Below, one piece after another: positions 5,449-63,438 of a stretch of 64,000 nt of DNA. Below the pieces are notes generated by a model. That model searched no databases and had not been told where the DNA came from. It saw nothing but the letters and a program-made list of their open reading frames with translations. The DNA is from Agelas oroides (taxonomy: Eukaryota > Porifera > Demospongiae > Agelasida > Agelasidae): positions 3,141,313 through 3,205,312 of the forward strand of contig OX422186.1 of the NCBI GenBank assembly GCA_949130485.1, in the 5' to 3' direction. Numbering within the stretch: the first letter of the stretch is position 1; each line of letters opens with the position of its first letter. The position numbers were made by a program, and so were the translations under genes.

Positions 5449-6850
5449 ATCTAAACCTACCCTTAATCAAAACCAACTAAATTTTTAACCTATGCCATGG
5501 GTATTTAATGCAGTAAATTTTGACTTTTACGGGGATCTAGTTTTGAAAGCCAATCCAAAGGTACTTTCAGTCATTCCCAGCAAATTTGTAGCTCTGAGCA
5601 CACCCACCCATTAGCAAATTTTCAAAGGCCAGGACCCTTGACCAGTGAATACTTGTTCAGACAAAAAAATTCCAGAAATGAAGCCCTGACAAGGTAAGAG
5701 GAGCATTTTCTAAGCCCATTTGAGTAAAAACTTATGTATATACTAGAGTAAGTTAGCAATTATCGGACGACAGGTACATTCACACGCTCAAACGCGGAGA
5801 TATCCATGTTTCTTTCCATAAAGTACGCTGGTTGATTTACTTGAATATGTGCAGTATAAACAGGTGAGTTCGAACGATATCATGCAATATCTCGAGAACT
5901 ACTCAACGCACAAACACCGGACAAGTACCAGCATGTAGCCAAGAGTCTGTAGATTCTACTGATGCTAATATTGTGGAGACTTCAACATGTTCAGCTGCGC
6001 CTCTGAGTGTTCAAAGCAGCTACCGCTACCAAAATATATTGTGAATTGGGGAGGTCTTGGGGCATCGTATCGATGCTAAAATCTCTCCAAAAGCAGCTTC
6101 AGAGAAGGCACAAACAACAGTGTCTGAAAATAGATACACTTTCCCGAAGATTGATGTTTTTCGGACGGCCATTTTATCGCTTCTAGCGCCAACAGGAAAC
6201 AATGCGCGGGTGTCATTTTTGTTACACCAGGTACTGCGTACCTCCGCTACAGTTTTGCGGTATCGCTGACAGTTTATGCAGTCTTCCCTCCACGTTTGAG
6301 CGTCCGATTATACCTGTTGTCCGATAATTGCTAACTTACTCTACTAAAGCTCAAAACATACTGTAGTACCTGGGTTATCTAGTTTTGTATATCTAAACCT
6401 ACCCTTAATCAAAACCAACTAAATTTTTAACCTATGGGTATTTAATGCAGTAAATTTTGACTTTTACGGGGATCTAGTTTTGAAAGCCAATCCAAAGGTA
6501 CTTTCAGTCATTCCCAGCAAATTTGTAGCTCTGAGCACACCCACCCATTAGCGAAAGCCAGGACCCTTGACCTGTGAATACTTGTTCAGACAAAAAAATT
6601 CCAGAAATGAAGCCCTGACAAGGTAAGAGGAGCATTTTCTAAGCCCATTTGAGTAAAAAGGAAGAATGGCCCACCTGCTACTGAGCAAGGCCTTACTACA
6701 GCCAAGCACAACAGCTACCAAAACTAAGTGGAATGATGTACCTAACCACATTCCTGTGCTAACAGGAACAAAAGTGTAATAATGTTGCCAACTCAAACTT
6801 ATGTATATACTACTAAATCTAAGCTCAAAACATACTGTAGTACCCGGGTT
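5449..6850. repeat. Direct duplication, one copy disrupted by a transposon
   Basis: The sequence starting tatatctaaacctaccctta at about 5449 is repeated at about 6389, and both copies run through the same roughly 250 bases up to gagtaaaaa. The first copy then lacks about 137 bases present in the second (6660-6796), after which both share cttatgtatatac and gctcaaaacatactgtagtac. The first copy carries the palindromic transposon 5744-6343 and the second does not, so 6800-6840 is a natural empty site. Confidence 0.75.
5744..6343. mobile_element. About 0.6 kb palindromic TA-target transposon (filled site)
   Basis: The termini are TA-GAGTAAGTTAGCAAT and its complement ATTGCTAACTTACTC-TA, with longer imperfect arms through the 'cgctcaaacg' motif. 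The paralogous sequence at 6801-6830 has a single TA at this point, giving direct support for a TA target duplication. The interior (6057-6250) contains the same peptide-like segment (GHRIDAKISPKAASEKAQTT) seen in the larger relative at 14279-15414. TA duplication suggests a Tc1/mariner-like mechanism, but no transposase is encoded. Confidence 0.8.
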
Positions 6851-14278: not shown

Positions 14279-15414
14279 TAGAGTAAGTTAGCAATCATCG
14301 GACGACAGGTATATTCGGACACTCAAACGCGGAGGGAAAACTGCGTAAACATTCGGCGATACCACAAGACTGTAGCTGAGGTACGTGGTACATGGTGTAC
14401 CAAAAATGACGCCCGCGCATTGTTTCCTGTTGGCGCTAGAAGCGATAAAATGGCCGTCCGAAAAACATCAATATTCGGAAAAGTGTATGTTTTTTCAGAC
14501 ACTGTTGTTTGTGCCTTCTCTGAAGCTGCTTTTGGAGAGATTTTAGCATCGATACGATGCCCCAAGACCTCCCCAATTCGCAATATATGTTGGTAGCGGT
14601 AGCTGCTTTGAACACTCAGGGGCGCAGCTGAACATGGACCAGTCCGATTCGATCGATATCGGACGGTGAAATTTGTCATTTCTTGCTGTGTTGTCTCCAA
14701 ACAAGTTGAAGTCTCCACCATATTAGCATCAGTAGAATCTACAGGCTCTTGGCTACATGCTGGTATTTGTCCGGTGTTTGTGCGTTGAGTAGTTCTCGAG
14801 ATATTGCACGATATCGTTTGAACTCACCTATTCATGCTGCACATAAATCAACCAGCGTAGTTTATGGAAAGAAACATGCAATATATTTATATCTCGAGAA
14901 CTGCTCAACGCACAAACTTCGGACAAGTACCAGCATGCAGCCAAGAGCCTGTAGATTCTACTGATGCTAATATGGTGGAGACTTCAACTTGTTTGGAGAC
15001 AACACAGCAAGAAATGACAAATTTCACCGTCCGATGTTGATCGAATCGGACTGGTCCATGTTCAGCTGCGCCCCTGAGTGTTCAAAGCAGCTACTGCTAC
15101 CAAAATATATTGCGAATTGGGGAGGTCTTGGGGCATCGTATCGATGCTAAAATCTCTCCAAAAGCAGCTTCAGAGAAGGCACAAACAACAGTGTCTGAAA
15201 ATACATACACTTTTCCAAATATTGATGTTTTTCGGACGGCCATTTTATCGCTTCTAGCGCCAACAGGAAACAATGCGCGGGCGTCATTTTTGGTACACTA
15301 GGTACCACGTACCTCAGCTACAGTCTTGTGGTATCGCCGAATGTTTACGCAGTTTTCCCTCCGCGTTTGAGTGTCCGAATATACCTGTCATCCGATGATT
15401 GCTAACTTACTCTA
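14279..15414. mobile_element. 1.1 kb foldback transposon, relative of 5744-6343
   Basis: The ends are TA-GAGTAAGTTAGCAATCATC and the exact complement at 15393-15414. The two halves (about 14281-14740 and 14950-15412) are long inverted copies of one another around a central segment of about 200 bases. Both arms, read outward-in on opposite strands, contain the same open segment (key words GEVLGHRIDAKISPK, EKAQTTVSE, LSLLAPTGNNARASF). No transposase is present. A TA sits at both ends, as in the smaller relative. Confidence 0.8.
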
Positions 15415-15864
15415 CCTTGAAGATTAGTATGTACAATGGCATAATTGTAGCTTGAATCATATTTTGTGCTATTTGTGTCTTTGTGCTATTTGTGTTTAGA
15501 TGCTGAGAGTTTCTTCAGGCAATCAGGTTGCTCAGGTTTTCCCCTCATTCCCCTCTTAAAGAGTATAGTGTCCTTCGCAAGGTGTGTGTTTGGCTGAAGC
15601 AAAAGGATGAAGTGAACCTCACAGAAGAGGGTGAAAAGGTTCAAGGTCTTTCCTCACAACAGCCATGATGTAACTGACTAAACATGTTCTATACACTAAC
15701 CTGGAAAATGTGTGTATGCACATGGAACCACTAACCTCATTGACAGGCTACTGATTTTTAGTTGCCCAAGTTGCAGTACAAAACTTATGTTTCAGCTACT
15801 GTCAGCACAGACATGAAAATTTGCCACGGTATATGACCAGTGTTTTGTGGATAGCTACCAGAAA

Positions 15865-15930
15865 AACAGGTAGGTACAAAATCTGGACTCTGGACTGGAC
15901 CGTGGACTGGACTCGATTTTGGACTTGATA
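15865..15930. repeat. TGGAC minisatellite, left copy
   Basis: Repeats of 'tggactctggactggac' type run from about 15881 to 15925. The reverse complement of the same array, with the same flank ('tacaaaa' then the array then 'ttttggacttga'), lies at about 22490-22575. The two arrays therefore face each other across the DUF6589/RecQ transposon. Confidence 0.6.
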
Positions 15931-16140
15931 GTGTTCCAATTCTGCCATTTAAAGAATGCTGGATTGCCCAATAGGCAGGGGATTGGCATAACAGTAGGAA
16001 CAGACATTTGTGCAGCCTTCAGCAAGACTAGCAGGTTGGTTTAAGCCATTACTCTGCTCATACACCCTTCCAGCCCAGCTGGTTGGCAAGGACTCATAGG
16101 AGTTACATTATGTAAGCTTTAGAAAATCCACAGAGATCCA

Positions 16141-16149
16141 GCTGGCAGT
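16141..16149. repeat. Target site duplication, left copy (9 bp)
   Basis: The bases gctggcagt lie directly outside the left terminal repeat. The right flank has gcttgcagt at 22177-22185, a match at 8 of 9 positions, consistent with a duplicated target that has since taken one substitution. Confidence 0.7.
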
Positions 16150-16221
16150 TAGTGTCGTGCCCAGACCCCACCCCTCACAGAGGAAAAGGGTCTGGTTACA
16201 ATACAACATCCCGCTCGACCC
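16150..16221 (+). repeat. Left 72-bp terminal inverted repeat
   Basis: It begins TAGTGTCGTGCCCAGACC and ends CGCTCGACCC. Within it, CCAGACCC (16161-16168) and its complement GGGTCTGG (16188-16195) form a subterminal hairpin that could be a protein-binding site. The transposase start codon lies 90 bp inside the repeat, so the promoter must overlap the end of the element. Confidence 0.9.
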
Positions 16222-16311
16222 TTGAGAGGCGTAGCCAAATACCATAGTCATAAATTGCAAGCGAGCGCATGGGAAAATTGCATAGTGAGAAGAGTGAGAA
16301 ATGGTTGTACC

Positions 16312-19300
16312 ATGGAGTGTAGCACGCCTTTTTGTACGCTGTGCGGAATATCTCTGCCGCTGTCATCCAAGCGAAGAACTATGTCTACTTCAGTTGAAGC
16401 GAACAAAGAAGCTGTCGAGTTCATGCTCAAGTTTGTTTCTGCGACGCTGAGTGACCATGATGGCAACCGATTTCGTTCCCAGTACGCATGCAGGCCTTGT
16501 TTTGCCAAGCTCGAGAAGGGAAGCAGACACTACAGAAACACTATTTCGCTCATCAGCAAACTTAGAGCTGCTGCACGAGCAACTGGAAGCATAGAAGTCG
16601 CCGTGAATGAACCATTTCCTTCACCAGCTGATTCATCTACTTGAGTTAGCCATGGCACTCAGACAGAGTCACCACAAGCGACTCAGAAGAGGACTCGGGA
16701 GTGTGAAGATGCGGAGCCTGCACCCAAAAGGCCAAGGGTTACACTCAGTGATGGAGACTCGGATATTGAGCACCAACAACCTGGGATTACAGTCATTGTA
16801 AAACCGGCTGTGAATGAACCAGATTCAACACCAGTAGCTCGGAAGAGGTTATTGGAGAGTCAAGATGCAGAATCTACTCCAAAAGCACTGAGGCTCACCC
16901 TTGGAGAAGGCAGTGAAACGCCCCCAGGACCAAGCAGAGCAAATTTGTCCCCAGCAAGTGTCCTCAAGGTTAGCAGAGCATTTTTTTGTAACTGTGGGTT
17001 TGCAACTATTAATCTTCTGTCTCTTTAAACTTGCACCATAAAGCAGAGGTTGCAGCAAGCATATTGTATGTGGTACAGCCAGCCCACTGGCCTGTAGGGG
17101 TCTCTAGGGGGATGTATACAACTTCACCAGTTGACAAGTTACATGTGTAAATTAATAGCATGTACTGATAACTTCCCATAAGTGCCTTTTTACCTATTTG
17201 CTGCATGTGACTTAGTAGTTTCTCTCATGGTGTAGGTCACCCATGTTCGACGGGGTAAAACAGTAAAGAGTTACACTGTACGAGAATCACCATTCAAGAG
17301 GATTGCAAAGACACTGCGATACAAGCAGCCTACGTACACAGCACGAACCTGTCTGGCACTACCAGCTGTAAAATCGGAGGCTTTGAAGCAGGTAGTTGCA
17401 GCAGTGAAATCAGAATGCAGACGCTTTTGTCAGCTAAAACCAAAACCTTCAGTTTTGCGCATGAAGTCTTCTGATGAGCTCAAGTCCTTCACATGGAAAG
17501 CAGTAATACTGGAGCTGAAACAAAGGGCACCGATTCTTCTAGCTGTTTTGCAAGCTGCAGCAGAGTCATATCGACAAAGGCTACCCCGTCAAACATTGGG
17601 CAGACGGAGAAAGAAGGGATCAAAACTCATGAAGATGGCAAGAGAGAGTGTTATCGGAATGGTTGCAGCAGTGCTCCTAAAAGAAAGAAATCAAAACATG
17701 CGCAAACCCCAGACTGTCATCAGTGCTCTATTGTATGCTGGACATGCTTCAAAGAAGGTGATTCACACTTTTTGCTGCATGGCTTCTATGTACCTCTTGA
17801 AAAACCTATACTGGTAGAAGGTCATAGTTCCCAGGTACTCAGTAATTACTGTTTTGTCATGGACTATAATTTCATCATGTCTTTTCAGGTGTACACCCGT
17901 CTGAGCAAGCTGGGAGTTTCAACTACCCACAAAACAGCTCTGCAAGCTGTAAAGAAACTAGGCAGAAACCATGATGCCCAAGTTATCTCATGGAAGAAAG
18001 TTGCTCAACCAGAACCTGATTACATCATTGTGGGTGATAACATTGACAAGAATGTGACACCACGAGACATGAGAGTGGGAAACCAGGTGAAGTCTCTGCA
18101 CTACTTTCATTCGTATGCAGTAAAGGATCGAGTTGACCCTGGCAGTCTTTCTGGTGACGGTCATGTCAGTGATGTCAACACCCTCGCAACATCGTCTGTT
18201 CTACCTACTGTTGATGACTGTGTTCGTATTCGCAACGATTACATCATCTTGGCCGCAAGAGTGATTGTTGAGAACATTTCCCACTTCAGCTTCCTACAGA
18301 AGTGTGTGGTAAAGCACATTCCACACAAGTTTTCCAAGGAAACTGCCAGAAAATCTGTGATAGTAAGTAAAATAGTAAGCCAAACATCAATTTTCTTAAT
18401 CCACGGGTTTTTGTTCTTGTTTTTATCACAACGTCTCCCTGCAAGTGTATACATTAAGTATTTTCATCACATGTAGGTGCCACTTGGGGTAGCACCAAAA
18501 AACGAGAACAAAAATGAAGAGATGGTGGAGATTGTGGAGCTACTACAACAGTACGTCCCAACAGACAAGGCTTTGAAGCATGTACACACAGTGGCACTTG
18601 GTGGTGACCAGCTAACAGTGGAAAGATGTAGGGGAAGCCAGAGTGCAAGAGTCACCTCTGATAATCAGATTGAAGCACTAGAAGGCCTTCATCCCTTTGC
18701 TGCAGACTGGCACGCCGAAGTTATTCTGCTACAGGTTGGATGTACAAGTATACATTGCACCTACACTCTCTAAAGTACAAAAATGTATTACTTAGTTTGT
18801 CATTCCGCTATATCATGCATATTTATTCACTCATTCCTTGTGTCATAGGCTTTTTTTGAGAGGCTATACCATGGGGGTTCAAACCTGGATGGGGGGGGTC
18901 TTCTGCAGCTCCGCAACCTATTGAATCGGCGAAATGTTGCAAAAGATGTAACTGGTCGTTTCAATGCAACAGTTAACTTCTTTGAGCTTGTTGTCCATTG
19001 CCACATCATTGCTGCTGCACTTCACTTTTTTGGCATGAAAGGGATTAATGATTCACCAACCTTCAATGCACTTCCTTCTCGCATGCCGAAATGGAATACT
19101 GAAAAGCAGTGGAGAGTTTTCTCTAACATTCTGGGCCGGCTTATTGACCGCTACGTCATCGTCAATAAATTTGCTGACCTTCATCCCCAACCAGCCATTC
19201 CAAGACCAGTCATGTCTTCGCTACTCACTACTCTCAGCGACAATCCACATGCTTTCCGTATTTCCACAGAGCATTGTTACATTGGCAGTTTGCCTACAAG

Positions 19301-20066
19301 GCAAATTTCAAAAAGACGACCTCTACCAACCTGGCTCCGTGCCCAATCCAGTCATCCTCAACCCTCACACGAAGTCATGCAGGCATCACCAGATGGTGTC
19401 TTTAATTATGCAAGTGCTGTTCTGAACGATGGTCTTCTTTTGATGGAATTTCGGGATGCCATTCATGAGGGAGATGGTGAGAGAATATTGTGGTGCTGGA
19501 AATTCATGCTCCCATACTTTTTTGCAACTGGCCACACAAAATATGCCCTGGAGGCATTCAATTTGTTGGTTCATGTTCATGCAGCAGCCTCACCTAGAGT
19601 TGCACACCAAATGATGTGGAGTCGTACAGTCAATACCCAAGGACACCAAGGCCAGAACATACCGATCGATTTACATATGGAGCATCTCAATCGATGCCTC
19701 AAAGAGAACATCAGCGGTCTTGTGGCGAACATCACAGAAAACACTGTTGTTCAAAACTCAAAGTCACTGAAGGGGGTTCTTGATGTTTGTTCAAACTTTG
19801 ATCAGGTTTGTGGGGTGACTCCCGACTCTATTTACCACACCAGAAAGGGATCACAGACAGATCGTGACATGGTACTGGCAGAGCTGACATCAAAGTCACG
19901 TGTGTTTGACTATGTACCTGGCCGACAACAGTACTCTGCTTCCTCCAGTAATCTCCCCTTAAATGTTGCCCAGGCAGTTGATGTAAAGGCCCTCTTTCAG
20001 TGGATTGATCAGCACAAAAAAAAACTGGCCAAGAAAATCAAGTTACGCAAAGTGCTTAGACGTTAA
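16312..20066 (+). CDS. DUF6589-family protein, putative transposase (5 exons, one in-frame stop)
   Basis: Exons 16312-16968, 17236-17757, 17889-18362, 18477-18734 and 18849-20066 join with all introns in phase 0 and GT-AG borders, giving about 1,042 codons. The ATG at 16312 sits in a good context (accATGg) and is followed by two Cys pairs (C8-x2-C11 and C60-x2-C63) resembling a zinc-binding N-terminal module. Two signature acidic motifs follow: GDNIDKN near residue 443 and GGDQLTVER near residue 595. The last exon has the conserved DLHMEHLNRCLKEN segment, and the C-terminus is basic. I recognise these as the DUF6589 pattern; reading the acidic residues as an RNase H-type catalytic centre is inference. 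An in-frame TGA at 16642-16644 (codon 111) interrupts an otherwise open first exon and could be a decayed CGA. The convergent RecQ gene lies on the other strand. Confidence 0.8.
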
Positions 20067-20097
20067 AAGACTGCTGCATGCAAGACATACATTGTGT

Positions 20098-20103
20098 TTA
20101 TTA
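20098..20103 (-). promoter_or_regulatory. Polyadenylation signal of the RecQ gene
   Basis: AATAAA on the minus strand, about 40 bases past the helicase stop and inside the short gap between the two convergent genes. The 3' ends of the two transcripts therefore probably overlap or nearly abut. Confidence 0.4.
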
Positions 20104-20139
20104 TTCAAAAATTGATAAATGATGCAATGCACAGGTAAC

Positions 20140-21963
20140 TTATCTGCATGACATAATGATACCAAAAAAAACATCTGCATGCTCATGTGAAGTAACACCC
20201 AACTTGATAAGGTCTTCTGTACACTGTACTAGTGTATAGTCTTGAACAATACTCTCTATCAAGCTGTGAGTGATGCCAGTAGAAATTTCAATTCCAACCA
20301 TTAATGATGCACTTGGAACTGCTGCCCTTTCACAGAGCTGCCTCCTGTATTCCAGCAACTGAGCCCTAATGCATCCCTGCTTATCTGTCAGTAATCTGGT
20401 GGTTGTTGTACGGCATGTGGGTTTCTTCACAAGTTTATCGGCTAACTCCTTGAAGTACACATAAGATTCTGGAAGATGGCAAGATCCACAGGAGCATGTG
20501 ATTGCACACGTCACAACACAGGCACTTTGTTGCTGGGTACCTGATACGACCTGTGATGCCAAAGTCTCTCATCAGTACCTTTCTTCTGCACTCAGATTTA
20601 TTAATGCAGTACTCTTTCATTGACGATGATACACCTGGTCTTCCACAAAAATCAACTGGTGTATAAAACAACATGGCAGTAGCAGGTTTTCCATCCCGAC
20701 CACTTCTACCAACTTCTTGAATATAAGTTTCAATGTCAGCAGGGGGACCCCAATGCATAACATGGCGAATATTTGGAGAATCCAATCCCATTGCAAATGC
20801 AATGGTTGCAAAAAACAGTTCGAACAGTTCCATTTGGGTCTGTGAATGATGTTACAATGTGCCTCTTCATATTCTCAGCAGTACAAGCATCATACTTTTC
20901 GCATATCCTACAATATGACTGTGGCAAAGCTTCTAAGGATGTAGCAGGAACATACAGTGCATTTAGATCATTTAATTGCAATGCTGCTTCTTGAAAAAGT
21001 TCAATTGTTTCTGCATATGAGCGGCAAAATACCAGATATCTATCCGCAGAAACCCCACTGATAGTGATGGATTGTACGATTGGTTTCACAACCAATGTTG
21101 TATCGCAACTGGTCGGTTTGGGAAGAACTGCTAGAAAAAGATTTGGGTTGTTAGGTATCTCAGAAATGATGTAGGGATGTGCCATTTCAAGGCACTTCAG
21201 CACATTTGCTTGTGTTGCTACATTCGCAGTGGCAGTCAGGGCCATAATGTTCGTTTTGTGAGGAAGTAGAGAACGAATCTCAGCAATGTTGGAAAATTCT
21301 TGCCGAAATTTGACACCCCTGTAGAAAAGTGAATTACTGTATCTTTGAAAACTCAAATAATGTACCAATTCCTCATCATTATGGGTGGTGTTTAAATAGA
21401 GGCACTACATGCGCATCATAAACATTTCTGTCATGGTCCACTACATGGCCACCCTAGTGCATATACTAGCCAAACACTACTGGAACTTGCCACTTCTCCA
21501 CGCAATGGGATTCATCAACAGCAAGACACACAACATGTCTCTGGTAGATGTCAGAACGAAACATCTCTCTCCATCTCAGGTTCAGTAGCATTGCTTCAGG
21601 GCTCATGTACACTAGCTGATACTTACCACTAGCTACACCTTCCCTAACAACTTCGTCCTTTTGTGCTATTCCAATATAAGCTGCCTGCAATCCCCTAGCC
21701 AAATATTTTCTAACTTGGTCTTCCATTATGGACTGGAGCGGGCAAACTACTACCACGATCGACGGAAAGCCAGTTTCTGCTCTCAGTATGTCAAATACAT
21801 AGGGAAGAGCAGCATAGCAGAGCGACTTGCCAGAGCCAGTTGGCAAAATGACAAACACATCTCTCCCAACCATGAATTCTCTAATTGCGTTGACTTGGTT
21901 CTCAGTCGCCTGGCTGTAATCAAGTCTTCGAACTGCTTCACCAATCGCCTTGTTGATGGTCAT
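20140..21963 (-). CDS. RecQ-family DNA helicase (2 exons, two frame breaks)
   Basis: The first exon (21963-21491) has the Q-type motif (ATENQVNAIREF), Walker A PTGSGKSLCY and the DESHC box. A GC-AG intron (21490-21319) joins EKW to GVKFRQEF, which restores the usual RecQ sequence after DExH. The second exon carries motif III (ALTATA), then FATIAFAMGLDSPNIRH and QEVGRSGRDG (motif VI), followed by Cys pairs of a RecQ zinc-binding domain (CLCCDVC, CSCGSC). The frame changes twice: in an A6 run at 20810-20815, and near 20495-20505 inside the zinc-binding domain. Each is explained by one extra base. The protein would be about 550 residues, with little beyond the helicase core and zinc domain. It lies inside the DUF6589 transposon and probably assists transposition or repair of the donor site (inference). 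Confidence 0.85.
21319..21490 (-). other. GC-AG intron in the RecQ gene
   Basis: The donor reads GTG|GCAAGT and the acceptor CTACAG|GGGTG. Splicing at these points rebuilds a tryptophan-glycine at the place where RecQ helicases have WGHDFR-like sequence. GC donors are a minority class, and GCAAGT is their typical form. Confidence 0.7.
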
Positions 21964-22104
21964 CTCCGTAAAGGACGCGTTGAGTCTTGGAAAGCACCAT
22001 CGTCATTTATAAACCGCACTATTTCTGACACGTGGAGCTTCGAGTAATTATTACTCTAACTGTGCTCTGATTGGTCATTTCATATGCCAGACGGCTACGT
22101 CACT

Positions 22105-22176
22105 GGGTCGAGCGGGATGTCGTATTGTAACCAGACCCTTTTCCTCCGTGAGGGGTGGGGTCTGGGCACGAGACTA
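22105..22176 (-). repeat. Right 72-bp terminal inverted repeat
   Basis: In reverse complement it begins TAGTCTCGTGCCCAGACC and ends CGCTCGACCC, matching the left repeat without gaps at about 69 of 72 positions. The subterminal CCAGACCC hairpin is kept. The helicase start lies about 140 bp inside. Confidence 0.9.
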
Positions 22177-22245
22177 GCTTGCAGTCAAACCTGGGACCTT
22201 GTGAATACTAGTCAGATGCTCTTACCACTGAGCCACTGGACTCAT
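22177..22245 (-). repeat. tRNA-derived SINE head
   Basis: On the minus strand the sequence has a box A (TGGCTCAGTGG) followed about 35 bases later by a box B-like GGTTTGACTGC, as in a tRNA-derived SINE promoter. It abuts the right end of the transposon, and the 9-bp target duplication lies within it, so the transposon may have inserted into the SINE. It is not a functional tRNA: no acceptor stem forms. Confidence 0.55.
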
Positions 22246-22489
22246 GGCGGAGGAGTAGAAGCAAGCCTTGCAACAGCCAGGCTGGAGGCCTCAGTGACTT
22301 CAGTTGTCGGGTACACCACCTCAGCCTCTTGCTCTATCTTCCAACGCATTGCCTAGACCTTAAACGCTCACAAAAAATGCATAGAAATCCGTATAATCAC
22401 CACCTTTGGCACAGCACAAGACTGCAAGTAATCAAAAAATGGACAGTGGGAAGGCCTGGAAATGTGAGGTTAGTTCGCAGATTCTGCTT

Positions 22490-22575
22490 TCCAGTCTAAA
22501 ATCAAGTCCAAAATTGAGTCCATAATCCAGTCCATAGTCCAGTCCACTGTCCAGTCCAGAGTCCAGGTTTTGTAG
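22490..22575 (-). repeat. TGGAC minisatellite, right copy (inverted)
   Basis: Repeats of 'agtccactgtccagtcc' type are the reverse complement of the array at 15865-15930, including the flanking sequence. It lies about 310 bp outside the right end of the DUF6589 transposon. Confidence 0.6.
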
Positions 22576-22606
22576 CTACCCCAGATAAACTCACTTTGAA
22601 CCAAGA

Positions 22607-22692
22607 TAGTCTTGTTCCCAGGCCACTCCCAGATTTTATCTCATCGCCATGGCTGCATGATAAAATCTGGGAGTGGCCTGGGAACAAGACTA
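22607..22692. mobile_element. 86-bp MITE with TAGTCTTG termini
   Basis: The first 34 bases (starting TAGTCTTGTTCCCAGGCC) are repeated as an exact inverted copy at the right end, around a short loop. The 9-base flanks gaaccaaga and gaaactagg match at 6 of 9 positions, a possible decayed duplication. A half copy (gggagtggcctgggaacgag) lies near 40857-40876. Confidence 0.7.
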
Positions 22693-22699
22693 GAAACTA

Positions 22700-23500
22700 G
22701 GAGTGTATAGTTCTGACTGTGTGAATATTTCCTACTCTCAGGTTGGTTAAGGCAGTCCCCAAATGTATGATTCGTAACATGCAAAAGTATTGCCCTAGTT
22801 TGTGGAGATTGAATGGCGGCCGCGTGTACGCTTCTTAGCTTTGCTAGTGTTATTCTGGCTGTTCTCAGCTTTGTGTTATCGCTGGTTGTGAAGTAGATAG
22901 ATCTGACTTACCGAAGGGATGCCATTGAGACTGAGCGCTGCTGTTTCTGGGAGCAGGAGAGGGTAATATGGCTTGAGCTACTGGAACGATGATGACCTAT
23001 CGTCTTTAGTGGTTGATGTAGATGGATAGATGGCTAGATTCGTGGCTAAAACTTTGAGAGTGTGTAGTGGACTAGTTGTACTAACGTACTGGAGTTGGGG
23101 ACAGAGGCTGCTGTTGCTGCCACTGGAGAGGTGAGCTTTGATGATAGAAATAAATGCCGAATTGAGACGTAAAAACACCTATATTTGCTTCTTGTAGTTT
23201 CAGGTTGTATCTGGTACAGTATCCCTACCCAGATTCAGATAGCTAAAGCAAACAGCTGTCGCTCGATATCCATTGCATCAGGATTGATGTTCCGCATGGA
23301 GCAAAATATAATTAAGGCAATTAAACTGTGATCCCCACGAGATTGTTAGCATGTTGCCATGGTAATACCTGTTTATAATAAACTACAATCAATTTGCCAT
23401 TTGGTTGATCAATGATTGTTTAGTGACAGCAGTACTTTGTCTTCAGTACTTGCTCAAATTATGAAGGGCAAAGTAAAAATTGAGCTAAAATCAAAAATGA
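22700..23500. other. No gene recognised
   Basis: The stretch 22830-22970 resembles 25145-25285 (a 'ctggttgtgaagtag' core followed by 'gagactgag' and 'tttctgg'), so both are copies of an old interspersed repeat. Nothing coding is recognised. Confidence 0.45.
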
Positions 23501-25930: not shown

Positions 25931-26703
25931 TACCGTAGTGTCCCGCTAATACGCCCCCTTTGAAAATACGCCCCCCCCCCTCTTTTCCGCCAAAGTTCCT
26001 GCACAGGGTAGTTTGACTCGTTATAACGCCCCCCGGTGAGCGTCTTCTGGAACATCAAAACTACACGTGCTTACTATACGTTGCAAGTGCGTTCAGTAAG
26101 ACTATAGTAGTCGGTGAATCTTTTGTAAGTTTTGTGGCTTTTAGAAAAGCCGGTTAGATGTTCCAAGTTTTAAGCTGCTAGTTTAGAAAACAGGTTTATC
26201 AGTCTGTCAAGGTGTTTTTGTTTCCCTCTGAAGATGTACACGCACGGAACCACAAGTCCTTTCCCATCAACTTCAGAACGTCTTCTGTCACCATTGACGA
26301 TGCAAGTCATCTCGCTGCCACTCTTGTGCAAGAAATACCAGCAGACTCTGGAAGTTTCCCGTGGTACATGACCGACAGTGTTGCCGTTCTTGAGGACAGC
26401 TACAGCGAAGTCGTCGTGAATGTTATTGACCTCGCGTTGAACTGGCAGCTCTTCTCCGATGTAGGGAGACCACGCAGCTTTGTAAACGTGATGTCCGCGA
26501 ACAGTATACTCTCGATCCTGAAAGTCGTCGCCATAGTTAGTTGGAAGTGTCCTAATTGCGTACATAGCACTTGCGTAAAATCTTTTGGGGGGGGGGGGCT
26601 TATAGTCGAGACTAATTGCATCCTCGAATATAAGCCCCCCCCCCTACTTTAGGCGGGATGTAGTGTACAAAATGGGGGGGCGTATTAACGGGACACTACG
26701 GTA
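25931..26703. mobile_element. Inverted-repeat element carrying a HIRAN ORF
   Basis: The ends are TACCGTAGTGTCCCGCTAAT and, in reverse complement, TACCGTAGTGTCCCGTTAAT, each followed by a C-rich run (ACGCCCCC). TA flanks both sides and may be the target duplication. The 773-bp interior is largely one minus-strand open frame for a HIRAN-like domain (26170-26565). The right end abuts a Penelope-like fragment. A separate element with TACCGTA ends lies at 33901-34474. Confidence 0.75.
26170..26565 (-). CDS. HIRAN-like domain protein (131 aa) inside a MITE-like element
   Basis: A single uninterrupted frame from ATG to stop. The core VRGHHVYKAAWSPYIGEEL, then REVNNIHDDFAVAVLKNG and TVGHVPRE, followed by a short C-terminal part with CVYIFRG, matches the pattern of HIRAN domains. 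In HLTF/Rad5 proteins HIRAN domains bind single-stranded 3' DNA ends. Here the domain is alone, without helicase or ring domains. It lies wholly between the terminal inverted repeats, so it looks like element-borne coding sequence rather than a host gene. Whether it is expressed cannot be seen; no upstream exon is evident. Confidence 0.6.
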   Translation of the reverse strand: MYAIRTLPTNYGDDFQDREYTVRGHHVYKAAWSPYIGEELPVQREVNNIHDDFAVAVLKNGNTVGHVPRETSRVCWYFLHKSGSEMTCIVNGDRRRSEVDGKGLVVPCVYIFRGKQKHLDRLINLFSKLAA

Positions 26704-40716: not shown

Positions 40717-41196
40717 CTGTGGAAGGAGATATAATTCTCAGTCACCATCCTCTAGGCAACACAAAACAATGGCAATACACACAATATTTAATGCAGTGAT
40801 TGTTGAGAACTGACTAATTGTAAGACAGCCATGGTATATAAAAACTGATAAAATCTGGGAGTGGCCTGGGAACGAGACAAGAATTAGAACCAAGGGGTGT
40901 ATAGTTTGAATATTTGAGTAAATGCCTACCACCATCAGTAGACGAGTGTAAACAATGGGGAGGGGGCATTAGTGAGTACACAAATGGTACATGAACGTTC
41001 TCATGCTTTGATCTTCTAATCTTGTACACCTGTACTTGTAAATGTAGGAGCCTAACCTCACAGAAGAGGGAGAGATGGTTTGAGCTCATAAACAACAATA
41101 GCCATGATGTGACTAACTTGTTTCATATTGGCCTGGAACATTCCATGTGGCTAGAAGTGGTTGCTAGGCAACACTAAACCGATGGTGCTACTTTAA

Positions 41197-41919
41197 GGTG
41201 GCACGGTCGTCCCTCGGCGGAGGTTAACGAAAACATAAACTTGGGTTACAGTCAGGACCAGGGTTACTCCTAGTTTCAGGGTTAGGGTTTGGTTTAGGGC
41301 AATCTTGCTTTGCCTAATTTTAAAAAGGGTTTTAGTAGCTCATTAATATATTCATGAACCCAAAATTGCCACTCGATGGACGCATCTACACACTCACTGT
41401 AGGTAGCGTCCCAACCACCAATGTATCTCAAATCAATCTATGCCAGCTTTTGTTCAAAGCTACTCTCAAAGTCAGGCTAGACTCATGTTTGTCACTACTC
41501 TTGGAATGGACAACTTTGACTGCACCAAAATGAATGCACATTTCGAAAAATTCACAGCTTGTCTACGGGAGGGGCTCATTCACGAGTGGAAGCAAGCATT
41601 ACTAGCCCCACCTCTCCCCCTTATGTCGCTAAACAACTCACGGCTCTGTTCCACACACAGCCACCGTTCAGCTCCCTTGTCTGTCAGACTGTAGCACAAA
41701 CGATAAATTGCGTATTCTAGTTAAAGCCCAGCCCAGCACTCGAAGCACCTGGCCACGGTCACCAACTAGACTAGGCATACGGCCGCGAGACCTGGGCCTA
41801 CTCAACAAATACAGTCTTGGCCACTGTGGCCTTTCTGCTGCTTCTAGACACAAGTTTGCTTTCACAAGCAGGCATCACACACTACTCACAGCTACTGACA
41901 CTACAGCACTCTACTAAAC

Positions 41920-41955
<36 letters not shown>

Positions 41956-42211
41956 TCGATCTAAGCTTATCTTCAAAGTTCCGAGCACCACATGAAGGGT
42001 GCCGCCAGGCCACATCTTAACTAACTTAATTATAAACTGATTATTGGATGGCAATGCCGACAGGAAATGGGGAAAATCCCCAATTTTACGGACCGTGAAC
42101 GGTTTGAGACTCCCAAAACGGACTGTGCGCTAAAATTTTAACAAGAAAAAGAAGACTATCAACTTGGATTCCAGGTTTGTTGACCTTGAAAATACAGGGT
42201 ACCGTGCCACC
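41197..42211. mobile_element. TTAA element, copy A (1,015 bp)
   Basis: Terminal inverted repeats GGTGGCACGGT and ACCGTGCCACC, with TTAA outside both ends (41193-41196, 42212-42215). Inside are a telomere-like stretch (gggttagggtttggttta, near 41280) and a pure T run near 41926-41953. TTAA targets are typical of piggyBac and Kolobok elements; no transposase is encoded. The open frames in it are also open on the opposite strand and are probably incidental. Confidence 0.85.
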
Positions 42212-42215
42212 TTAA

Positions 42216-42896
42216 GATGCTACACATAACTTATTCAACATGTCACATTTGTCAAGTCAACCCAATCCAGTGCTACTACAGAACAAACATGACACCACTA
42301 ATCATATTCTTGAGGACCAATGAACGGAATGTTGCCTAGGGGTGCCTCACAGAGCTAGCTAAATTCAACCTATTAATATGCATGAGGGGAGAGATTGCCT
42401 GACTTCCACCCGGAATTACACGCCTTTAATGAGATTCATTGATCTCAATTCGGACATTAACAACATCCACAAGTATCCACAGAGGGTTAATGAGATTCAT
42501 AGCCATGTTCTGTTCGGGTTTGGGTCCACGAAAGGCTTAGGTCATACTCATGAATATTCAACATCATTTACCCATTCCTTTCAACCCCAAGCCAAGCTGC
42601 CAATACTTCAACAGAAGTTCAATAATGAGGTTCATGAGAGTCAACATACTCTAACCCTCCCATTGGACAGTTGACTGAACCCAGGGTTGTTCATGGGTAA
42701 TGCTGAGGTCTAGTTAAAGCCAACTCATTAATATTCATGAGGTGGACAGAAACACCCCAGATTGTAGAGCTCTGTCGGGCTTTAATTAGATTCATAGGCT
42801 CAATTAGGGTTAGGGGGGTTCGGGTTAATGAGATTAGGGTTAGGGATTTTAGGGTTAAGGCAAACTAGGGTTAGGGCTAGGGCTAGGCTTAGGGTT
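42216..42896. other. Passenger sequence with TTAGGG-like repeats
   Basis: No gene recognised. The right part (about 42805-42896) is made of degenerate ttaggg words (gggttaggg, tagggttaggg), resembling interstitial telomeric sequence. The word 'ttaatgagattcat' and 'attaatattcatgag' variants recur in the rest. Confidence 0.6.
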
Positions 42897-42900
42897 TTAA

Positions 42901-43918
42901 GGTGGCACGGTCGTCCCTCGGCGGAGGTTAACGAAAACATAAACTTGGGTTACAGTCAGGACCAGGGTTACTCCTAGTTTCAGGGTTAGGGTTTGGTTTA
43001 GGGCAATCTTGCTTTGCCTAATTTTAAAAAGGGTTTTAGTAGCTCATTAATATATTCATGAACCCAAAATTGCCACTCGATGGACGCATCTACACACTCA
43101 CTGTAGGTAGCGTCCCAACCACCAATGTATCTCAAATCAATCTATGCCAGCTTTTGTTCAAAGCTACTCTCAAAGTCAGGCTAGACTCATGTTTGTCACT
43201 ACTCTTGGAATGGACAACTTTGACTGCACCAAAATGAATGCACATTTCGAAAAATTCACAGCTTGTCTACGGGAGGGGCTCATTCACGAGTGGAAGCAAG
43301 CATTACTAGCCCCACCTCTCCCCCTTATGTCGCTAAACAACTCACGGCTCTGTTCCACACACAGCCACCGTTCAGCTCCCTTGTCTGTCAGACTGTAGCA
43401 CAAACGATAAATTGCGTATTCTAGTTAAAGCCCAGCCCAGCACTCGAAGCACCTGGCCACGGTCACCAACTAGACTAGGCATACGGCCGCGAGACCTGGG
43501 CCTACTCAACAAATACAGTCTTGGCCACTGTGGCCTTTCTGCTGCTTCTAGACACAAGCTTGCTTTCACAAGCAGGCATCACACACTACTCACAGCTACT
43601 GACACTACAGCACTCTACTAAACTCCTTCTCTTTTTTTTTTTTTTTTTTTTTTCTTTTTAAGTCGATCTAAGCTTATCTTCAAAGTTCCGAGCACCACAT
43701 GAAGGGTGCCGCCAGGCCACATCTTAACTAACTTAATTATAAACTGATTATTGGATGGCAATGCCGACAGGAAATGGGGAAAATCCCCAATTTTACGGAC
43801 CGTGAACGGTTTGAGACTCCCAAAATGGACTGTGCGCTAAAATTTTAACAAGAAAAAGAAGACTATCAACTTGGATTCCAGGTTTGTTGACCTTGAAAAT
43901 ACAGGGTACCGTGCCACC
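42901..43918. mobile_element. TTAA element, copy B (1,018 bp)
   Basis: Differs from copy A by only a handful of substitutions and the length and purity of the T run (about 43630-43660). TTAA lies at both ends (42897-42900, 43919-43922). Confidence 0.85.
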
Positions 43919-44138
43919 TTAAGCTCATCACTACACCTACATGTACATGTGTGACAGTCCCAAGTAAATCCCATACAAGTTAGTCTTCTAACCTGAAAAT
44001 TACATGCATGTAACTGTACTCTCACAGTTACTAGAAACCAACCAGAGTCATTACATCATACAGTCTACCTCACACCCAAATATTCCATTTCTTGTCAGGG
44101 TACTATTAGATATATGCAGTGATCCATTTCATACTTAC

Positions 44139-50558: not shown

Positions 50559-52230
50559 TTAGCTCTGGAGTTTATAACTTTGGCTTCAAGCAGCTGCTTG
50601 GGGAGGTCACTGGCTTGCATGTTGATGATGGAATTTATGAAAGCCAGCTGTCATTGGGAGATGTAGGATGAAATGGAATGGGAACCAATCAGGCTCTGGA
50701 GAGCTGCCGCTGGACATCTGAAAGGGAGGCCTTGGAGGTACGGAGGATCTTACAGTGGGTGCGTTCAAGAACGTTTAGTTCGGTACTGGTGAGTGACCAC
50801 AATTCTGAGCCATAGAGCATGATTGGGATGGATAAAGTCAAGTAGAGCTTGTACGATGTGATAGGGTGTAGACATCCAAACCTGGATCCTACAGCGTTAA
50901 GTGTGAAGAATGCACTTCTCCCTGCTGTGCTCCGCTCTGTGGTGGTGCGTGCGTGGTGGAGAAGGAGACTGATTGGAGGATCCCAAAATGGTGCACCTCA
51001 TCTGCTTCTTGCACTTTCTCACTCCCTAGGTGCCATTCCCGTATCTTGCTTGAGTCCGTGAACGGGGAGACTCTCCAAAGACCATGATGAATGACTTGCT
51101 TGCGTTTAGGTTGTACCGCCATTTCCCTGCATAGGAGTGTACGATGTTTAGCATGGCTTGGAGCTCTTGAGGAGATTCTGCAATTAAGGCAAGGTCGTCA
51201 GCGTACATAGGTGCTCCGATGTAAATGGAATTCACTCTCACTCCAAGTCCTGAGGTGGAGAGGAGGTCGAGGAGCTCGTCAACGAAGATGGAGTAGAGAA
51301 GAGGTGAGAGGATGGCACCCTGTCTGACACCTTGGTGAATGGGGAAGCTGGCAGAGGTGGCGTTGTTCCAGGCAACGGAGCAGGAAGAGTTCTTGTACCA
51401 TGTATAGAGTAGATGCCATATGCGCATGGGGAGTCCCTTGTTGTGAAGCTTAACAAAGAGACCTTCATGCCACACAGTATCAAAGGCTTTCCTGGCATCT
51501 AGAAAGGCAACATATGCCTTCTTGTTTCGTTCTCTTGTGTGTTGGATGGCCTCTTGTAATTGTAAAATGTAGGTGGTGTGAAGACAGCTGTATCCAGACC
51601 TGAAGCCACCTTGCAGTGGATTTAGTGATATATCTGGTGAGATGATATTGATGAGCACCTTCTCAAGGACCTAGCTTACTGATGGATGACAGCAGAGATA
51701 TGTCTCTGTAGTTGGATGGATCATGTAGGTCCCTGTCATGGCCTTTGGGGATGGGTATTACATGGCCGTGCAAGAAGGATGCAGGGATGTGTCCAGCGGC
51801 AAGTATGGCATTAAAGGTGTTGGTCAAATGTATAATGAGGGAGGGCCTTCCAAAATGCAGGTCCTCAGCCTCGACCTCATCTGGGCCAGGTGCTTTGTTG
51901 GAGGCAAGTGTTTCAACGGCCCTGGCTACTTCACCTGGAGATACTGTGATGTCTTCACCAGGTGGGATGGTGAGTAGGTGTTGAAATTCCTCAGTGATGG
52001 TGGGGTGGAAGGTGTCATCAAAGGAGGAGGATGGAGTTGGGGAAGCAAGATCTTGGAAGTGAGTTTTCCAGCCGTCCATGACCTCAGGGCCTTCATAGGT
52101 CTTTCCTCTAGAGACTAGTTGAGTGGTGGGGACCATTTGGTGGCCATTCTTCTGTCGGATGGTACGAAAACGTTTCCAGGGGTCAGTGTTGTGAAGGTCT
52201 AGAGAAGCAAAGAAGTTCTCACGTTCTTCC

Positions 52231-57229: not shown

Positions 57230-58185
57230 TCTGAATATCCCGGAACGTCCTAACTTGTCCTACCTAGAACAATGCCTAAAGTCCCAGGTCTCAAATTTCC
57301 CCTCAGGTCCCGAGATATCCTGGTATGTCCTGAATTGTCCATCCTAAGACGATGGCCAAGTCCCAGGTCTCAAATATCCCTTCACATCCCAGGATATCCC
57401 AGGATGTCCTGAATTGTCCATCCTAAGGCGATGGCCAAGTCCCAGGTCTCAAATGTCCCTTCACATCCCGGGATATCCCAGGATGTCCTGAATTGTCCAA
57501 CAAGTCCCAGGTCTCAAATGTCCCCTCAGGTCCCGGGATATCCCAGGATGTCCTGAATTGTCCATCCTAAGACGATGGCCAAGTCCCAGGTCTCAAATAT
57601 CCCTTCACATCCCGGGATATCCCAGGATGTCCGGAATTGTCCATCCTAAGGCGATGGCCAAGTCCCAGGTCTCAAATGTCCCTTCACATCCCGGGATATC
57701 CCAGGATGTCCCGAATTGTCCAACCTAAGACAATGCCCAAAGTCCCAGGTCTCAAATGTCCCTTCACATCCCGGGATATCCCAGGATGTCCCGAATTGTC
57801 CAACCTAAGACAATGCCCAAAGTCCCAGGTCTCAAATGTCCCTTCACATCCCGGGATATCCCAGGATGTCCCGAATTGTCCAACCTAAGACAATGCCCAA
57901 AGTCCCAGGTCTCAAATGTCCCCTCAGGTCCCGCGAGGTCCCAGGATATCCCAGGATGTCCTGAATTGTCCATCCTAAGGCGATGGCCAAGTCCCAGGTC
58001 TCAAATGTCCCTTCAGGTCCCGGGATATCCCAGGATGTCCTGAATTGTCCATCCTAAGACGATGGCCAAGTCCCAGGTCTCAAATGTCCCTTCACATCCC
58101 GGGATATCCCAGGATGTCCTGAATTGTCCATCCTAAGACGATGGCCAAGTCCCAGGTCTCAAATGTCCCTTCAGGTCCTGGAATG
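57230..58185. repeat. 79-bp minisatellite, about 12 copies
   Basis: Unit: gatgtcctgaattgtcc, then atcctaagacgatggccaag, then tcccaggtctcaaatgtccc, then ttcacatcccgggatatcccag. Spacing between successive 'gatgtcc' words is mostly 79 bases, with one 66-base copy. Because 79 is not a multiple of three, the open frames over it rotate through all phases and are not genes. Copies differ at a few sites (a/g in 'caaatatccc', 'ttcacatccc' versus 'ctcaggtccc'). Confidence 0.9.
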
Positions 58186-58308: not shown

Positions 58309-61300
58309 TCAGAGCTGTTAAAGAAAAAAGAGACAATTTAACATTCCATGGCTAACAATCTAAATATAAATACATATAAACCTGGGCCTTATTATGCAAT
58401 GCAAAATCACCTATACCCGCCCACTTTACTAGTATAATGATCTTAAGGAGATATATGTGACCATCTTACCTGTTCATCACTTGAAGGTGGAAATAGCTTC
58501 CTGGGTGAACGCCTGGGGGACCTAGGGAGCCGGGGTGACTTGGAGTGAGGAGGGGACTTGTCCTTCAATGAAGCAGTTGGGTTGCTTCGTTTTATTCCAG
58601 TCATTCTATGGAGGTCACGAACAGAACACCATTAGTGGGTATCTTTGTCAGGATGTGTATGCACATAACCTTTTGCCTTGCAGTAAGGGTAGGTACATGT
58701 ATGTAGGTGCCTATCCTCCCTGTACAGATGTGTGTTTTCTTGGTAAGTGTGTTGAAACAAGAAGGGTACCCCCAATGTTGTTACAAGACACATGAAAACT
58801 TACGGCTTAATTTCCCTCTGAGCGAGTGTGCTTTCATACTGGGCCAGTGTTATGTTGTACTTTAACAGCTTCTTTGAAAAGTCAATTTTGTCCTCCTTAG
58901 AATCAGGGAGAGGTGCCTTGGTAAACTCAAATTGCCATAAGACAAAAGAGATGTGAGATGTGATCTGTGGTACAAAAACAGTGGCGCATTTGTAACACCC
59001 AAGCACAAGCTCATAATCATTCTTGTAAATTGTTACTTGGTCCACATGAAATTGCTTGCTAATGCAACATCTACTTACAGATGATGTTCCTTTACTTCCA
59101 GTCACCTCCAACACTTTCCCCAGGCCTTCCTCGTGTAAATGGTAGAATGCTCTGACTGCATCATCTTTGTTTCCCCGTTTTCAAAATTTTTTCAATGCCA
59201 AAAGTGGAGTGAGGTAGAGTGTTTTTCCAGGAAGGGACAGGCAGAACGCTGCCGTTTCGTCATCTTTGGAGACAGGGTCTGCTTCAAAACCCACTGAGGA
59301 CAAACAGAATTCACATTAACAACATACACAAGTACATATGAGTGGATTAATGATAAGCTGTATATTTTATTTCATGTGCTTTAATTGACATTCCTAAGGC
59401 AACGTACCTATCTTGTGTGTCTGCAACTCCTCTTCAATCAGCCCCTTGCCTGCAACAAAGGCTGTTTGCTGGCATGCTGTCTGAACAAAGTTTACTGCTG
59501 CTTTCACAGCTATCTCCAACACCTCGCTACAGAGAGGATCTTCACTGTTGATGCTAAACAGCATGTGTAGAATGGTAGCAATTCGGAGGACATGGCCACG
59601 ACTCTTGCTTAGCATTCCTGTGAGTAGAGTTGATTTCATGTTGCTCAAAATGTCTATGTAGATTCAACCACTAGCTACATAAATGGTTAGGACGTCTTGC
59701 CTCATGGTGCGAATGAAGAAATTCGATGTTTGAGGGCAAAACAAGGGAAACTGAAAGGCCGGCAGTCACCAGGAATTGAACCCCTGGCCTGAGCCACCAG
59801 TGCTCTGCACAATCCTATGTATGTACTGCACTGGTGTTACAAAATGCTTCAGTAGCACATCATTTAAACAAAACTTTTCTGAAACATACTAACTTTTGAT
59901 TTCATGCACATATGGGCTCTCCAATTAAGGTGGCGGTGGAAGTCTCTCGGCGGAGGTTAACGAAAACATAAACCTGGGTTACAGTCAGGACCAGTGTTAC
60001 TCCTAGTTTCAGGGTTAGGGTTTGGTTTCGGGTAATCTTGCTTTGCCTAATTTTAAAAAAGGGTTTTAGTAGCTCATTAATATATTCATGACCCAAAATT
60101 GCCACTCGATGGACGCATCTACACGCTCACTGTAGGTAGCGTCCTAACCACCAATGTATCTCAAATCAGTCTGTGCCAGCTTTTGTTCAGAGCTACTCCC
60201 AAAGTCAGGCTAGACTCATGTTTGTCACTACTCTTGGAATGAACAACTTTGACTGCACCAAAATGAATGCATATTTCAAAAAATTCACAGCTTGTCTACG
60301 GGAGGGGCTCATTCACGAGTGCAAGCAAGCATTACTAGCCCCACCTCTCCCCCTTATGTCGCTAAACAACTCACGGCTCCGTTCCACACACAACCACCGT
60401 TCAGCTCCCTTGGGTACCAGAGTGTAGCACCAACGATAAATTGCGTATTCTAGTTAAAGCCCAGCCCAGCACTCGAAGCACCTGGCCACGGTCACCAACT
60501 AGGCTAGGCATACGATCGCAAGACCTGGGCCTGCCCAATGAGTACAGTCTTGGCCACTGTGGCCTTTCTGCTGCTTCTAGACACAAGCAGGCACTACGTA
60601 CTACTCACAGCTACTGACACTACAGCACTCTACTAAACTCCTTCTTTTTTTTTTTTTTTTTTTTTTTAAGTCGATCTAAGCTTATCTTCAAAGTTCCGAC
60701 CACCACATGAGGGGTTCCGCCAGGCCACATCTTAACTAACTTAATTATAAACTGATTATTGGATGGCAATGCCGACAGGAAACGGGGAAAATCCCCAATT
60801 CTACGGACAGTGACAAAGAAGTCTATCAGCTTGGATTCCAGGTTTGTTGACCTTGAAAGTAACAGGGTTCTCTGCCACCTTAATGCAAATTCCCACAGAA
60901 ATTAGGCCACAAGAGGTTAATTTCCTGTTTCAGGTCTGGGCTAGGTTACCTGACTTATGTAATCAGATGTAATCAGTATTCAGCCTGCAACCACAGTGTT
61001 TACACAACCTGCACTCAGTGGCTTCACCATCCAAGCTTCTATATTTTTTAGATGCAAAGTGTCATAGTCTTATGCCTAGACCTCACCCTCCATGATGCAT
61101 TTTGATGTTTGTACACCACTTTCTTTCCACTTTTGTCTCAAAAATAACAACAACAACAAAAACGCTTGGTGGCCTGGCCATTTAGTGACTTGTAGGACCG
61201 AAACAGGAAAATATCTTTGTGTGACCTTAATCACATGGTTTGATTGGGTATATAATCATATAGGTATTTAAAGTATGTATTGTAAGGCTACGTATATACC

Positions 61301-63438
61301 AACTGTGCAGATTTATCCCAAATTGCACGGCTATCGACCAATCAAATGCGGATTTCACTTTTTGCACTGCTCAGCTGTGCAAAAAGTGAAGTCCGCATCT
61401 GATTGTAGTACCGCAGGCGCCTGGATAGATGTAGCAATGGCGTTGTAAACAATTGGGAGAATTCAAATGCGAAAGAAAGCAACGGCAGAAGGTTGTATTA
61501 GCTGCTTTCCTGTGAATTGTTGACAAAAATCACTACTCCTTCGACTTCGAAGCTGCAATAAAACAGCCATTACCACGCCTTCGAATCTTTCGGGTCACCA
61601 GAGCCTGGTGGAGAATTGCCTGTAGGTGGCCTGTTCTGGTAGCCGATTGCTCTGTTTTTCTTGGTGAACGAGATCGAGTAGAGCATCATTCAGGTTTACT
61701 ATGCCGCTTCGCATGCTTCGTGGCCTGGTACCCGTGCCGAATACGAGGCTATATGCTTTGTGGAGCGAACGGTCATTTGCCACACCTTCTATACTCTTCC
61801 GACGGCTGCACTAGCGCTAACTAGTCGCTCTGCCCTCCTCTTGAACTCACTGGGAAGTTGTTTCAGTTCGTTTTCTCATGCAGTAGTACATGTAACTATC
61901 ATAGTGTGAAGAAACAAAGAGAACCTATATGATTAATATGTGATACCATGACTAACAGTGCAATTTGAGGATTAATTACACTCATAAGATTAGTAATTTC
62001 ACTCGGCTTCACCTCGTGAAATTACAAAACTTTTTGTGCAATTAATCCCAAATTGCACTGCTAGCCATGGTATTACATATACATACACGAACACAATGTC
62101 AAGTGTTTTGACCTCAAATATGGAAGGTCATTACAACTTGATGTATGTGCCAAGCTAACGTATACCTGGTAGCAGTTGATCCATTCCTGCCATTGATTTC
62201 AGGCATTTCTGAACCTCATCATAGTACTGGCTGAACGTAGTTGAAGTACTTGACATTTGAACACTCTTGGGGGTAACTCCTGACCAGGTTCATCTGGTTT
62301 CCTCCACTGTCTTGCCAAGAGATTCGCTGCAGATGCAAATTTAGGTAGTGACAAGTATGAAGTAGTGCTAACTATTGATTACTACATACAATCACGTTAC
62401 CGCAAAATTTAAAAACCATACCAAAGTTTTATAGTTTTCTCTTATAAGGTATTCATTGAAATTTTCACCCAATGAAAATAACCAGCTGTAGGTTGTGCAC
62501 TTATATTCTGGACGAAGTCCCGATCCACTTCCCCTAGACTTGAAAAGTCCTCAAATAGTGGATTGGGGAAAAACCAAAGGAATCGATGGGAGAATCCCTT
62601 TTCTGCAGTTGCCGGCATCTCAATCAATCCCCTGGCTACTCCTGGCTGCGTAAATCCACCCACAGTCAATTGCGTTGAAGACATCACAAAGTTGGCATCA
62701 CCACTGACTGTACATGTGTGAGAAACAGGTTATAGCATTACTTGGTTGTCAATATTATGTAGTCATACTTACTGTTCCCATGCAACCATATCAGCTTCAA
62801 ATCTATTGTTGGATGTTGCTTAGCAACCAAATGTTTGAATGTGAATAACACTAAGTAGAATGGGTAGAGGTGTGTCAGTGGGTTGCTAAATAACATTCCC
62901 CAGACAGAACAGAATTTCACCCTTTGGTCTGCAAAACCTAATTGCAAGTGGCACATACACATGTATCATACTCATCAAGTGACTGACCTGTATCCCTTCT
63001 CCATGGATGTGCATTGTAGAGCTGTAGGAATAGTGACAGCTCGTGAGAATCTGACAATCCGCGTCCACGATAGAGATTGATCTGAGTCAAAAATGCAGAC
63101 ATTTCATCGTAAAAACCAAGCAGTCGGCAGCAATTCTCGCTCATCAAGGCACCCATTTTCTCAAATGTGGCGTCATCAAAAACCCACGTTGGTTCTTCAT
63201 CAGTTACGCCACACATCACATGTATCTCTTGCATCATAGAGTACAGGTGTCGAAAGAGGGTTGATTTCCCACTCCCAGTTGGCATAGATACGGTCAACCA
63301 TGCAAGAACTGGTTCAGTCCAGTCGGTGCCAGGGACTTTCACAACTGATGGGGATAGCACAAAGCTGCCAAGTACAACATATCCACAAAGGACAGCTGTG
63401 GGTGGCAGGTTCAGTGCACTTCCGACTCTTTCACATCC
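58309..63438 (-). CDS. DUF3987-type P-loop ATPase gene, 3' part (7 exons)
   Basis: Exons 63438-62988, 62707-62501, 62279-62166, 59617-59408, 59293-58804, 58605-58470 and 58314-58309 keep one frame for 537 residues, ending SSDEQL-stop. The first seen exon follows a splice acceptor, so the 5' end lies outside the window. Exon 1 has Walker A PTGSGKST (residues 53-60), then WVFDDATFEKMGALMSEN and GFYDEMSAFL, the acidic pattern of DUF3987. Exons 3-4 join as MDQLLPGMLSKSRGH then VLRIATILHML, the conserved end of that domain. The tail is Ser/Pro/Arg-rich (SPRLPRSPRRSPRK), probably disordered and nuclear-directing. A TGA at 59182-59180 (after LALKKF) breaks exon 5, although the frame stays open beyond it. 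The long fourth-to-third exon intron holds a SINE and a TTAA element. The function in animals is unknown; bacterial and phage homologues are helicase/primase-like. Confidence 0.7.
59755..59850 (-). repeat. tRNA-derived SINE, second copy (box A deleted)
   Basis: Shares with the 32845 copy the box B region (GGTTCAATTCC-type, 59772-59783) and the body near 'acaatcct...tatgtactgcac', but has lost about 38 bases that include box A. It is therefore an inactive copy. Confidence 0.6.
59929..60879. mobile_element. TTAA element, copy C (951 bp)
   Basis: Same family as 41197-42211 and 42901-43918 but older: scattered substitutions, a small deletion near 60810, and ends decayed to GGTGGCGGTGG and GCCACC. 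TTAA flanks both sides (59925-59928, 60880-60883). It lies alone in an intron of the DUF3987 gene. Confidence 0.85.
61340..61404. repeat. Hairpin with 28-bp arms
   Basis: aatcaaatgcggatttcact and its near-perfect complement face each other around a nine-base loop. The neighbouring words (atcccaaattgcac) recur in the palindrome at 61936-62082, so both belong to one repeat family. Confidence 0.65.
61595..61783 (-). CDS. Unrecognised small ORF in CpG-richer stretch
   Basis: A 62-residue frame from ATG (context caaATGa) to stop, in a locally GC- and CpG-richer segment (61480-61860) that could be a first exon or promoter region. No domain recognised (words: SLVFGTGTRPRSMRSG, NLNDALLDLVHQEKQ). It is inside an intron of the DUF3987 gene on the same strand. 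It may be incidental. Confidence 0.2.
   Translation of the reverse strand: MANDRSLHKAYSLVFGTGTRPRSMRSGIVNLNDALLDLVHQEKQSNRLPEQATYRQFSTRLW
61936..62082. repeat. Nested palindrome, about 147 bp
   Basis: Outer arms of about 40 bases (accatgactaacagtgcaat and its complement near 62055-62075) enclose a second hairpin (gtaatttcac...gtgaaattac). Probably a small inverted-repeat transposon. Confidence 0.65.

Follow-up and report, generated by a model that had tools for sequence, protein, structure and literature searches.

We identified a 6027-bp DNA transposon at positions 16150-22176 of a 64-kb window (the whole stretch of Agelas oroides DNA that was analysed). Two convergent genes lie between its terminal inverted repeats (TIRs), a DUF6589 gene on the plus strand and a RecQ-family helicase gene on the minus strand. 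We consider it roughly 85% probable that this is an AcademH-like, helicase-encoding cut-and-paste DNA transposon, an assignment drawn from the helicase and the target site duplication (TSD) rather than from a comparison of transposases. The gene content was read from Pfam and NCBIfam matches; the Pfam scan covered nine stretches picked as likely exons, and 15 open reading frames (ORFs) of at least 90 aa exist at 15500-23000. Pfam matches within these nine stretches, together with TIGR00614 matches, confirmed the two convergent genes, DUF6589 and RecQ, that had been predicted. The TIRs, the TSD and the domain matches support the broader original prediction, a DNA transposon that combines a DUF6589 gene and a RecQ helicase. 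The features are as follows.

16141-16149: left TSD, GCTGGCAGT; 8/9 identical to the right copy
16150-16221, plus strand: left TIR; 69/72 identical to the right arm, ungapped
16312-16968, plus strand: proposed exon 1 of the DUF6589 gene, from the ORFs; N-terminal CxxC...CxxC (by eye) and an in-frame TGA at 16642-16644
17236-17757, plus strand: proposed exon 2; GT-AG intron at 16969-17235, frame open
17889-18362, plus strand: proposed exon 3 with VGDN, the proposed first catalytic Asp (by eye); GT-AG intron at 17758-17888, frame open
18477-18734, plus strand: proposed exon 4, DUF6589, with GGDQLT, the proposed second Asp; PF20231 at 1.7e-10 on ORF 18477-18773, GT-AG introns
18849-20066, plus strand: proposed exon 5, DUF6589, with KYALEAF, the proposed last Glu, and a stop codon at its end; PF20231 at 5e-32 alone
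20140-20568, minus strand: an ORF in another frame that may encode the C-terminal end of the helicase (by eye, uncertain)
20435-20851, minus strand: C-terminal half of the helicase, Helicase_C and RecQ zinc-binding region; PF00271 at 8.2e-9, PF16124 at 2.1e-5, TIGR00614 at 2.7e-23
20736-21318, minus strand: middle part of the helicase with the ALTATA motif, its final part in a frame differing from that of the next RecQ match; TIGR00614 at 1.1e-11, best PDB matches WRN and BLM
21319-21493, minus strand: proposed GT-AG intron of the helicase, joining DESHCVEK to GVKFRQEF; the 260 residues checked are free of stops
21494-22002, minus strand: N-terminal half of the helicase, Walker A GSGKS and DESH box; PF00270 at 8e-16, TIGR00614 at 2.5e-29, best PDB matches RecQ (4tmu, 8.2e-18; 1oyw) and BLM
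22105-22176, minus strand: right TIR; 69/72 identical to the left arm
22177-22185: right TSD, GCTTGCAGT; 8/9 identical to the left copy

Direct comparison of the two arms gave 69 identities over 72 ungapped positions, whereas the best of 20,000 random 72-mer pairs drawn from the window had 33 matches, which bears out the predicted 72-bp TIRs. A wider repeat detection returned arms of 80 nt at 93% identity (16142-16221 and 22105-22184). Identity falls abruptly on the inner side and is lower over the outer 8 nt. The flanks themselves show partial pairing, so the outer end was placed with the help of the TSD and not from the TIR alone. At these ends the 9-bp TSD carries one mismatch, and the alternative offsets and lengths tried gave only shorter or nested matches. 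A pair matching at 8/9 or better was found in 23 of 200,000 random intervals of equal length, and the 9-bp duplication of the original prediction thus stands as well. The ends of the element and the target duplication are real and come from one insertion. When the window was scanned with the first 15 bases of the conserved end, allowing at most three mismatches, these were found at both termini only, and self-comparison of the window revealed no second match to the element in the remainder.

Several other features were seen in the window. A 1.1-kb foldback at 14279-15414 is 93% identical to its own reverse complement, and segments within 5741-6346 resemble it at 90-93% identity; this pattern suggests a family of foldback elements. 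A dispersed repeat is found at 41192-42216, 42896-43923 and 59925-60813, the first two copies being 99.4% identical and the third about 92%. Minus-strand ORFs encode a reverse transcriptase (51026-51670, RVT_1 at 3.3e-30), probably of a LINE, a HIRAN domain (26170-26643, 2.1e-7) and, close to the window end, DUF3987 (62938-63438, 5.3e-12). At 57235-58184 lies a tandem array whose repeat unit measures about 79 bp, with a higher-order periodicity of 223 bp.

A five-exon structure with GT-AG introns fits the DUF6589 gene and keeps the frame open at each join; for the third intron, a donor at 18357 would also be in frame. The joins are supported by the PF20231 match, which reaches 4e-54 (Pfam) on joined exons 3-5 compared with 1.7e-10 and 5e-32 for the pieces taken singly. 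Read from 16315, the spliced frame comprises 1042 codons, with a single internal stop besides the terminal one; the other two frames contain 45 and 55 stops. DUF6589 is the sole Pfam match above cut-off in this gene. Exons 1 and 2, the CxxC...CxxC segment included, had no Pfam match above cut-off, and the sub-cut-off matches to At4g08330, FANCF, GumK_N and GAP1-N2 in these exons were taken as chance. The match on joined exons 3-5 starts after VGDN. Read by eye, VGDN, GGDQLT and KYALEAF could supply the first Asp, the second Asp and the Glu of a DDD/E catalytic triad, and DUF6589 probably represents the catalytic region of this kind of transposase. A single-sequence fold model of the DUF6589 part had a mean pLDDT of 35.9, too poor to judge an RNase H fold. 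Three weak PDB sequence matches to exon 5 (E 0.15-0.16) were taken as chance. In the openly licensed literature we found no paper naming DUF6589 (PF20231) as a transposase domain or linking it to Academ.

Searches for relatives of the element returned nothing from viral contigs, either with exons 3, 4 and 5 in single-protein scans or with the exact TIR pattern, nor did exon 5 find a relative in prokaryotic genome contigs or, by tblastn, in phages. These results tell little about eukaryotes, since the collections are viral or prokaryotic and single-protein scans reach close relatives only.

The identity of the second gene as a RecQ-family helicase is indicated by TIGR00614, which matched three of the four helicase pieces, each piece under the model's full-length cut-off. 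PF00270 and PF00271 both exceed their Pfam cut-offs; RecQ_Zn_bind (PF16124) barely passes, at 25.6 bits against a cut-off of 25, and ResIII passes over the same stretch as PF00270. An alternative intron of 157 bp (21475-21319) likewise leaves the frame open. A tblastn search of plasmids with the N-terminal exon gave 212 records, all below 60% identity; the ten listed of the 212 are all less than 39% identical, and eight of them are annotated as RecQ. These plasmid matches tell only that the N-terminal exon is RecQ-like. No family in Pfam or NCBIfam matched the ORF at 20140-20568.

Two features absent from the original prediction bear on the state of this copy. One is the in-frame TGA at 16642-16644 in proposed exon 1 of the DUF6589 gene. 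The other lies in the helicase, where the RecQ matches shift from one frame to another between about 21.0 and 20.8 kb; we read this as a broken frame, though it could instead reflect an additional intron or an error in the sequencing. A second loss of frame near 20.5 kb is only a guess, as the ORF at 20140-20568 matches no family. Given the stop in the DUF6589 gene, the helicase frame change and the three differences between the TIRs, an old, decayed copy is the simplest reading, and the element is probably a decayed copy.

How such an element might move can be proposed from its parts. The DUF6589 protein would act as a DDD/E transposase using the Asp in VGDN, the Asp in GGDQLT and the Glu in KYALEAF, and by analogy with its class it would bind the element ends and cut the element out. 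Joining to target DNA would then take place at positions staggered by 9 bp, and repair of the gaps would produce the 9-bp duplication. The RecQ-family helicase would be an accessory enzyme that may, as a guess, unwind the ends or process junctions. Kojima has suggested that the helicase is related to long TSDs (available text of PMC10045372). Participation of the helicase in transposition is plausible, and its role, and whether it sets TSD length, are questions common to AcademH elements.

Here DUF6589, a Pfam family without known function, is linked to a transposon that carries a helicase, has complete ends and is flanked by a TSD. This link raises the possibility that DUF6589 genes elsewhere encode transposases, and it could be of use to annotators to the extent that our reading of DUF6589 holds. 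Apart from this link, the element is a further copy of a lineage already described.

A first alternative is a separate, undescribed superfamily, with a DUF6589 transposase unrelated to Academ and a RecQ helicase acquired independently, as in KolobokH. RecQ does occur in at least one other superfamily, in KolobokH and, on the complementary strand, in Kolobok-1_CCri (excerpts of PMC9587614), and the comparison with Academ was made here on described traits. Against this, the helicase, the 9-bp TSD, the length and the eukaryotic host all fit reports of AcademH or Academ. We therefore regard a separate superfamily as improbable, and the same low odds apply to its corollary, that DUF6589 provides the catalytic region in a transposase lineage outside Academ, one that acts together with a RecQ-type helicase and in which helicase and long TSDs arose independently. 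The original prediction of an undescribed or under-described superfamily is not supported, since the helicase and the 9-bp TSD match AcademH.

Less probable still is that the element merely captured a host RecQ gene, whose helicase plays no part in transposition. The helicase does appear broken here, and a single copy was seen; however, the DUF6589 gene carries a stop as well, so the damage is not confined to the helicase. An internal helicase is moreover the naming trait of AcademH, which, going by the title of Kojima 2020 (Mob DNA 11:15), reportedly encodes a helicase and is present in animals and fungi.

A KolobokH-like element, which would share the combination of transposase and RecQ helicase and, in one rhodophyte Kolobok, a helicase on the opposite strand as here, is very unlikely and was rejected on the TSD, because Kolobok TSDs are TTAA (4 bp; 3-5 bp in KolobokP), whereas GCTGGCAGT/GCTTGCAGT is 9 bp long and not TTAA. 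KolobokH is, moreover, stated to be restricted to fungi (all on Kolobok from excerpts of PMC9587614).

The AcademH-like assignment is judged by descriptions of AcademH, and within these no difference from the present element was established. The original prediction had set Academ aside on account of short TSDs. According to the available text of PMC10045372, short TSDs belong to AcademX (3 or 4 bp), whereas those of AcademH are 9 or 10 bp, and this difference within Academ is seemingly related to the encoded helicase and nuclease. AcademX, a member of the same superfamily with a nuclease in place of the helicase (PMC10045372, same text), was rejected for the 9-bp TSD; the nine stretches scanned with Pfam gave no nuclease match, the ResIII match belonging to the helicase. 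Zisupton, of the KDZ group, has TSDs of similar length (8 bp in the available text of PMC12730594, compared with 9 bp here), and the transposase-like exons had no Pfam match to KDZ. As for the anatomy of AcademH, the accessible parts of the papers cited do not place its helicase in the RecQ family or on the opposite strand, and those of PMC8290104, PMC9970103, PMC9143410 and PMC12210899 hold nothing further. As in AcademH, a helicase lies inside the element, here of the RecQ family, on the minus strand and between the TIRs. The single insertion seen here has a TSD of 9 bp, 8/9 identical, within the 9-10 bp of AcademH, and both have terminal inverted repeats (69/72 here). DEAD (PF00270) and Helicase_C (PF00271), both found here, are reported for AcademH in a passage of PMC10799480 that attributes fungal proteins with these domains to AcademH, KolobokH or Helitron and notes low copy numbers of AcademH in Basidiomycota, Ascomycota and Mucoromycota. 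In bivalves, curated Academ consensus elements average 5565 bp, compared with 6027 bp here; the excerpt of PMC10294476 does not assign them to the H or X lineage. AcademH is found in eukaryotic hosts (animals and fungi), and the host here is eukaryotic too, in keeping with genes that are best read with GT-AG introns and with the reverse transcriptase ORF at 51026-51670. Overall the element looks like a further example of the kind described in 2020 as AcademH, and not a new class.
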